Shown here one piece after another: positions 7,001-49,490 of a DNA stretch of 64,000 nucleotides (within the stretch, counting starts at the first letter, position 1; the number at the start of each line of letters is the position of its first letter). Both the position numbers and the translations under genes were made by a program. Origin of the DNA: Opitutia bacterium UBA7350. GTDB taxonomy: Bacteria; Verrucomicrobiota; Verrucomicrobiia; Opitutales; Coraliomargaritaceae. Under the pieces are notes generated by a model. The model saw nothing but the letters and a program-made list of their open reading frames with translations, made no database searches and was not told the origin of the DNA. The stretch spans positions 124,001-188,000 of the forward strand of contig CATINC010000005.1 in the NCBI GenBank assembly GCA_949524905.1, in the 5' to 3' direction.

Positions 7001-7834
7001 ATGAATTGGGAAAAAGTCCGCGACTTCGAAGATATCCTATACGAAAAAACAGGTGGCATTGCTAAAGTCACCATTAACCGCCCGCACCGACGCAACGCTT
7101 TTACCCCCGATACCGTTGCCGAAATGATCGAGGCCTTTACCGATGCCCGTGAAGATCCTGCCGTAGGGGTTGTCCTTTTAACAGGATTTAACCCTCAGAC
7201 CGATGGGAAATTTGCCTTCTGTTCCGGCGGCGACCAAAAGATTCGCGGCAAACAAAAGGGGGGTTACCTCGGCAAAGACGGAGTCCCCCGTTTAAATGTC
7301 CTGGACCTCCAGAAATTAATCCGCTCCATGCCAAAAGTGGTGATCGCGCTCGTAGCAGGTTATGCCATCGGTGGGGGACATGTCCTCCACGTTGTCTGCG
7401 ATATGACCATCGCTGCCGACAATGCCATTTTTGGGCAAACTGGACCCAAGGTCGGGAGCTTTGACGGCGGTTTTGGCGCGAGCTACCTCGCCCGGATTGT
7501 CGGACAAAAAAAGGCGCGCGAAATCTGGTACCTGTGCCGTCAATATGACGCTCAAGAAGCCCAAGCAATGGGACTCGTCAATAAAGTCGTTCCCTACGAG
7601 CAACTCGAAGCAGAAGGCATTACATGGGCGGAGCAAATCTTACAACACAGCCCCCTCGCGATCCGTTGTTTAAAATCTGCCTTTAATGCCGATGTTGATG
7701 GTCAGCAAGGTCTACAAGAACTCGCGGGTAATGCCACCCTCCTGTATTATTTAACCGAAGAAGGGGAGGAAGGCCGCCAAGCCTGGAATGAAAAACGTCC
7801 CCCCGATTTCAAGGCGTACCCTTGGTTGCCCTAG
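7001..7834 (+). CDS. menB: MenB, 1,4-dihydroxy-2-naphthoyl-CoA synthase
   Basis: 277 residues of the crotonase superfamily. It closes the second ring of the naphthoquinone from o-succinylbenzoyl-CoA. Visible marks are [11 protein letters not shown] (oxyanion hole region, with the flexible loop KGGY that follows in MenB), [17 protein letters not shown] and the catalytic region [18 protein letters not shown], and a C-terminal [14 protein letters not shown] typical of MenB. It is co-directional with menD. The quinone it helps to make is the expected substrate of the Act complex encoded at 27717-35736. Confidence 0.96.
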
Positions 7835-7894
7835 GGTCATTGTCAGCACAGCGCGCTTGCAATTTTCGTTTTAAAGTGCTTTTTTATAAGTTCA

Positions 7895-8076
7895 ACCCTG
7901 CGGTGTTCGAGATACATCGGAGTGTCTGTCCTTTACTGATTTGAAAATGGGAGTTGACCCTAGGGCTTTGCTGTCCAGCCGTAAACCGGAAGACAAACAA
8001 GCTCAAGGAAGCACCCACCTAGTTTTTAAAAGGCTAAGATCTCCCATCCTGTTACGGCACCTGCGGGGCTTTTTTA
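7895..8076 (+). ncRNA. ssrS: Candidate 6S RNA with intrinsic terminator
   Basis: The gap after menB contains a roughly 174-base rod-shaped RNA. The closing stem pairs CCCTGCGGTG (7896-7905) with CACCTGCGGGG (8058-8068) with one bulged base. It is followed at once by a T-run (8070-8075), so the closing stem also acts as terminator. Inside, ATGGGAG (7946-7952) pairs perfectly with CTCCCAT (8041-8047), and further in, GGGCTT/AAGCTC and TGTC/GACA stack towards a small terminal hairpin. A TATAAG -10-like box lies at 7885-7890. Length, an interrupted long hairpin and a large internal bubble match 6S RNA, which binds sigma-70 RNA polymerase. I do not recognise conserved primary sequence strongly enough to be sure. 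Other structured RNAs remain possible. Confidence 0.55.
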
Positions 8077-8233: not shown

Positions 8234-8842
8234 ATGGTCGGCCTCGCCGCCGCATCCACCGCCATCGGCACCAGCGCAGATGCCGCCATGAATCAAGCCG
8301 TGAATATTCCCGCCGGGGGGCTTACCTCGCCAGCAACAAATGGAGCTGTCAATTGGGATATCGATGGCAATGGGAGCAATGATTTTGCCTTATATGCTTT
8401 CGGTGCATCAGTTCTTTTGACAAATCGAGATGCTCAAGTTGCGGTCAACAACAGTTTTGACATTTTAAAATTAAGCGCGGGTCAGCAAGTCGGCACTACT
8501 GGAGATGGTCTTAGATTCGGATCTGCTGGTAATTTTTTTACAGTGATAAGAGCCAACACCCTTATTGGGGCCGGTATGGATGCCGCTGATTGGTCTGTTG
8601 GGGATACGGGCTATATTGGTTTCCGATTCGATATCAGTGGTGCTACCCATTATGGCTGGGCAAGCATAACCCTTTCCAGCACGGCAGCGCAGTTCACCAT
8701 CAACGATGCATGGTATGAAGATGTCGCCGGTCAAGCCGTGACAGTTGGTTCGACCGTCCCCGAACCGGCTCACATCGCACTCGGCCTCGGCGCGCTCACG
8801 CTCGGTGCTGCCGGACTGCGCCGCATGCGTCAAGCCGCCTAA
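8234..8842 (+). CDS. Small PEP-CTERM anchored exported protein
   Basis: 202 residues from the ATG at 8234. The C-terminus has VPEPAHIALGLGALTLGAAGLRR: a PEP motif, a hydrophobic helix and a basic tail, the sorting signal handled by an exosortase. Between is a beta-rich, Gly/Ala/Asp-rich domain with WDIDGNGSNDFAL and a GYIGFRFD...YGWASI segment often seen in PEP-CTERM proteins of Verrucomicrobiota. From this ATG the signal peptide lacks a basic n-region. The codons just upstream (from 8210: ATT then KKSNIKE) would supply one, so the true start may be a non-AUG codon at 8210. A terminator follows. No exosortase gene is in the window. Function unknown. Confidence 0.7.
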   Translation: MVGLAAASTAIGTSADAAMNQAVNIPAGGLTSPATNGAVNWDIDGNGSNDFALYAFGASVLLTNRDAQVAVNNSFDILKLSAGQQVGTTGDGLRFGSAGNFFTVIRANTLIGAGMDAADWSVGDTGYIGFRFDISGATHYGWASITLSSTAAQFTINDAWYEDVAGQAVTVGSTVPEPAHIALGLGALTLGAAGLRRMRQAA

Positions 8843-49385: not shown

Positions 49386-49490
49386 GTGGTCGGGTCCTAT
49401 GCAATGTCGGACAGGCGAACCCCGTCAGGCCCGGAAGGGAGCAGCGGTAGTTTGATCCACATGTGCCGTAGGGTGCCTGGCCACTTTTTT
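49386..49490 (+). ncRNA. ffs: Small signal recognition particle RNA (4.5S type)
   Basis: A 99-base hairpin with T-run. The apical part GTCAGGCCCGGAAGGGAGCA is the universal domain IV with the GGAA tetraloop. The ends pair as GTGGTC (49386-49391) with GGCCAC (49479-49484), and TTTTTT follows at 49485-49490. It binds Ffh to target nascent membrane proteins. It lies 80 bases before dnaX, an arrangement also seen in other bacteria. The precise 5' end is estimated from the pairing and could be further upstream. Confidence 0.93.

Follow-up and report, generated by a model that had tools for sequence, protein, structure and literature searches.

A single-copy 6S RNA gene behind menB in Opitutia bacterium UBA7350, with a predicted product-RNA template and a closing stem that probably also serves as terminator

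6S RNA is widespread in bacteria, where it imitates an open promoter and parks RNA polymerase. No paper devoted to this RNA in Verrucomicrobiota was found in the open-licence literature, and the locus studied here, part of a 64,000-nucleotide stretch of Opitutia bacterium UBA7350 DNA that was analysed as a whole (the window), raises the question whether the structured segment behind menB is such an RNA with its own transcription unit or the end of the menB mRNA. The menB gene (7001-7834; NCBIfam matches PRK07396 and menB) lies upstream on the same strand, and the gap behind it is free of ORFs, as an initial reading of the sequence (the preliminary description) had it, with no ORF of at least 60 amino acids between the menB stop at 7834 and position 8234. 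The downstream ORF at 8234-8842 matched no NCBIfam family, and its C-terminal part reads like a PEP-CTERM anchor.

For the identity of the element, an Rfam search of the whole window gave a match to RF00013 (6S RNA) at 7892-8073 on the forward strand, 182 nt in length, which scored 60.6 bits against the curated gathering cut-off (GA) of 46.4 bits and covered the model from end to end (positions 1-187 of 187). The preliminary description had placed a structured element at 7895-8076, called it a candidate 6S RNA and named RF00013 as the check; the search bears out both the element and its assignment, with the bounds given by Rfam. Together with the T-run that follows, the match delimits an ssrS-like gene at 7892-8075 (+), and 7892-8073 is the sole RF00013 copy in the genome, where no second 6S RNA was found. 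We consider it about 97% probable that 7892-8075 holds a 6S RNA gene, present once in the genome and transcribed from its own promoter, and that the 6S RNA would hold RNA polymerase and be released through the synthesis of a product RNA (pRNA). At the level of sequence, membership in the 6S RNA family is established by the covariance model, and conservation is shown for the structure, the template, the upstream box and the junction of stem and T-run. The RNA is of an already-known kind, retrieved by a standard Rfam model, and its gene is an ordinary one.

Two Rfam matches in the whole window were above threshold, the 6S RNA and a bacterial small SRP RNA (RF00169) at 49388-49485 (+) with 72.5 bits. 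Weak matches to HPnc0260, STnc220 and ncS025 overlapped or lay near the region, far under threshold, and were rejected as its identity; the reverse strand was also rejected as the source, as it has a less stable fold and yields just a faint antisense counterpart of the model match (27.4 bits). The folding energy of the single sequence was mildly beyond that of shuffles and not significant (z between -1.6 and -1.9; 10-15 of 200 shuffles folded equally well), and it was set aside as stand-alone proof for 7892-8073. That the element exceeds chance is concluded from the covariance-model match and from covariation in relatives, not from folding energy.

The consensus structure common to ten family sequences consists of 47 pairs, of which 37 show compensatory changes in a 50-sequence alignment of the order. 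Fitting this alignment (A3) to the structure biases its counts in favour of that structure, but the margin is very large: cells changed on both sides number 365 versus 114 in shuffles, and 91.7% of the paired cells can pair versus 42-51% when the partners are slid. The rod shape of closing stem, central bubble and apical arm is thus backed by covariation, and the 6S plan with inner stems and an internal bubble, which had been proposed together with a check for covariation in relatives, is upheld by the consensus. The closing stem, CCCUGC(GGUG)/(CACC)UGCGGGG, has one bulge as originally described, and joins 7896-7909 (+) to 8055-8068 (+), with 96-100% of cells paired in the 50 sequences. The downstream helix, P2, is formed by 7919-7934 (+), which also contains most of the predicted pRNA template, and by 8029-8044 (+). 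Its arms coevolve: across the order, 0 of 2000 permutations of the partners gave pairing as good as that of the true arms, in a test uncorrected for relatedness. The apical arm at 7949-8016 (+), with a conserved GGGAG...CACCC base and a GCCG...CGGAAG tip, is recognized from covariation in helices 6-9. Two order members possess shortened 6S RNAs of 164-165 nt (L072 2043-2206 in G099 and L073 2001-2165 in G381), which retain the closing stem and bubble and carry, in the apical arm, a different GC-rich hairpin in place of the conserved GCCG...CGGAAG tip.

At the 3' end, the T-run at 8070-8075 (+), present where it had first been noticed, stands right behind the closing stem and recurs across loci of the family, order and phylum. 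At least five T directly follow the stem in 9 of 10 loci of the family, in 32 of 50 of the order and in 24 of 26 from elsewhere in the phylum, versus 0, 3 and 1, respectively, in a control stretch just downstream, the order and other phylum loci being mostly best-scoring matches and not a random sample. Since the closing stem leads directly into a T-run in loci across the phylum, it probably doubles as an intrinsic terminator hairpin, as suggested before on the basis of this locus, and 8055-8068 is probably also the 3' arm of the terminator. A local hairpin in the 3' arm alone has a folding energy of just -5.6 kcal/mol; being less stable than the closing stem, it was rejected as the terminator by itself, and it might act as a helper in termination.

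The 6S RNA starts 57 nt past the menB stop, and this short distance on the same strand, combined with the failure to find a clear consensus promoter, would suit a structure that belongs to the end of the menB mRNA, the region then being its 3' UTR and terminator. A consensus sigma-70 scan of the forward strand detected no promoter near the RNA start, and the -10 candidates of the window copy are ambiguous (TTTTTA at 7881-7886 or TATAAG at 7885-7890). A putative -35 box of an own promoter, TTGCAA at 7857-7862 (+), was nevertheless apparent from the family alignment, and belongs to an order-wide TTG[AC] box that starts at -40 to -28 in 44 of 50 order members versus 5.7 expected from shuffles. 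Moreover, menB was found beside the RNA in none of the relatives examined, where other genes adjoin it and some of the loci break off near it, and both the RNA sequence and the upstream box are kept while the neighbours differ; a full-length RF00013 match would also be unexpected for a 3' UTR. With synteny and the upstream box against it, the alternative already named in the preliminary description, that the region is only menB 3' UTR, appears very improbable. The recurrent downstream neighbour of the 6S RNA is proC, which points at the RNA gene both in the window and in five relatives (L078, L079, L097, L101 and L105). Three other order members (L069, L070 and L075) have an upstream stretch of the form TTGACG-N16-TACC(T/G)T, whose unusual -10 box might reflect a promoter preference of the group.

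In the region of the predicted pRNA template, CUGUCCUUUACU shows no variation among the ten family members. Verified pRNAs have GG at positions 4/5 in Gram-negatives and an A next to the start (PMC8414754). Based on the template position and these rules, the pRNA is predicted to be 5'-AAAGGACAGACACU-3', starting opposite U7934 and beginning with 5'-AAAGGACAG; the template reads CCUUU followed by A and the pRNA AAAGG..., so that the sequence shows GG at pRNA positions 4/5 (either 4/5 or 5/6 being looked for) and the A beside the start. These features also bear on the idea of a 6S-like RNA with a different polymerase binding, such as an Ms1-type RNA on the core enzyme without sigma, which draws on the structural relation of Ms1 to 6S RNA described in PMC9130861. 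The RF00013 score above threshold at 7892-8073, however, and the fit of the template and its neighbouring A to verified pRNA start sites argue for an ordinary 6S RNA, and an Ms1-like binding mode is regarded as exceedingly unlikely.

Occupancy of the template was modelled by making 14 bases (7921-7934) unavailable to folding. In the resulting predictions P2 opens and a hairpin forms in the 3' central bubble, at 8020-8036 (+) in the window RNA, where its expected pairs rise from 0 to 6.5 (family mean, from 0.4 to 5.0). Among 40 other order members, at least four pairs of this hairpin are predicted in 34 with the template blocked versus 17 with the RNA free, and its arms beat permuted partners in the order, none of 2000 permutations being as good in a test uncorrected for relatedness. 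In the literature, the E. coli RNA is described as forming a 3'-bubble hairpin, and those of B. subtilis and A. aeolicus as forming a collapse helix (PMC8876501).

The preliminary description had included an internal ATGGGAG/CTCCCAT pair in the fold. Both strings exist, at 7947-7953 and 8041-8047 (+), but their pairing probability is 0 in the free RNA, in which GGG 7949-7951 pairs with CCC 8014-8016 and CUCC 8041-8044 with GGAG 7919-7922, and the pairing was therefore rejected as part of the resting fold. When the template is blocked it is predicted with a probability of 0.63-0.76, as an alternative pairing that resembles a collapse helix. As a collapse helix conserved in the order it was rejected as well, since the arms show no coevolution there (1383 of 2000 permutations as good, uncorrected for relatedness); with the template blocked, at least four of its pairs are predicted in just 2 of 50 sequences. 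The release type that depends on conserved pairing between the P2 3' strand and the distal part of the 5' bubble was, by the same count, not found in the order. The better-conserved predicted release element appears to be the 3'-central-bubble hairpin, and ATGGGAG/CTCCCAT may contribute to release in the genus of the window.

From these sequence features we infer how the window RNA would be expressed, bind polymerase, give rise to pRNA, be released and terminate. The RNA would fold as a rod whose central bubble resembles an open promoter, and the rod is expected to bind and restrain the housekeeping RNA polymerase holoenzyme. With the 5' side of the bubble as template, the polymerase would then make a short product RNA, predicted to be 5'-AAAGGACAGACACU, and this synthesis would set the 6S RNA free. 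Much as described for E. coli, the product RNA would open P2, whereupon the 3' bubble could form a hairpin. The 3' end of the 6S RNA probably arises at an intrinsic terminator made up of the closing stem and the T-run immediately behind it.

In the phylum, RF00013 matches were identified in 193 of 387 sampled genomes, 140 of them above the cut-off; for the order the figure is 100 of 132 genomes. Large searches of this kind use stricter filters; because of this filtering, genomes lacking a match may still carry a 6S RNA and do not represent proven absences. A model built from ten family members (R1) was less general than RF00013 across the phylum (68 of 288 versus 193 of 387 genomes), and it added class members missed by the RF00013 search, for example G051, G122 and G196. 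One order member (G416) carries 6S RNA in two diverged copies, each on its own contig (L067 2060-2245 and L068 2100-2285), a state that recalls the 6S-1/6S-2 pair of Bacillus.

The general picture of 6S RNA is unchanged by the window gene. What the analysis adds is a confirmed global transcription regulator for a group on which the literature searched contains little RNA work, together with a predicted product RNA that can be sought; it also shows that end and release features of 6S RNA can be read from sequence in a poorly studied group. A wider proposal, which we hold tentatively and at slightly less than even odds, is that in this phylum the closing stem is an intrinsic terminator whose loop is the whole RNA of about 150 nt, and that the E. 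coli-type release hairpin is conserved far outside γ-proteobacteria; if true, closing-stem folding would be coupled to 3'-end formation. The phylum-wide set of 6S RNAs makes both the release mechanism and the idea of the stem as terminator experimentally testable.

Compared with known systems, the window copy is predicted to resemble B. subtilis 6S-1 (PMC8876501) in that it can form the collapse-like ATGGGAG/CTCCCAT pairing with the template occupied, although, unlike the 6S-1 collapse helix, this helix lacks order-wide coevolution. No long T-run comes after the annotated end of ssrS in E. coli K-12, whereas the window closing stem enters one. The window RNA is otherwise similar to the E. coli ssrS-type 6S RNA (RF00013) in its length, its rod with central bubble, closing stem and apical arm, its predicted template for a pRNA that has GG at positions 4/5, and, as a folding prediction, the 3'-bubble hairpin that forms in E. 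coli upon pRNA synthesis.
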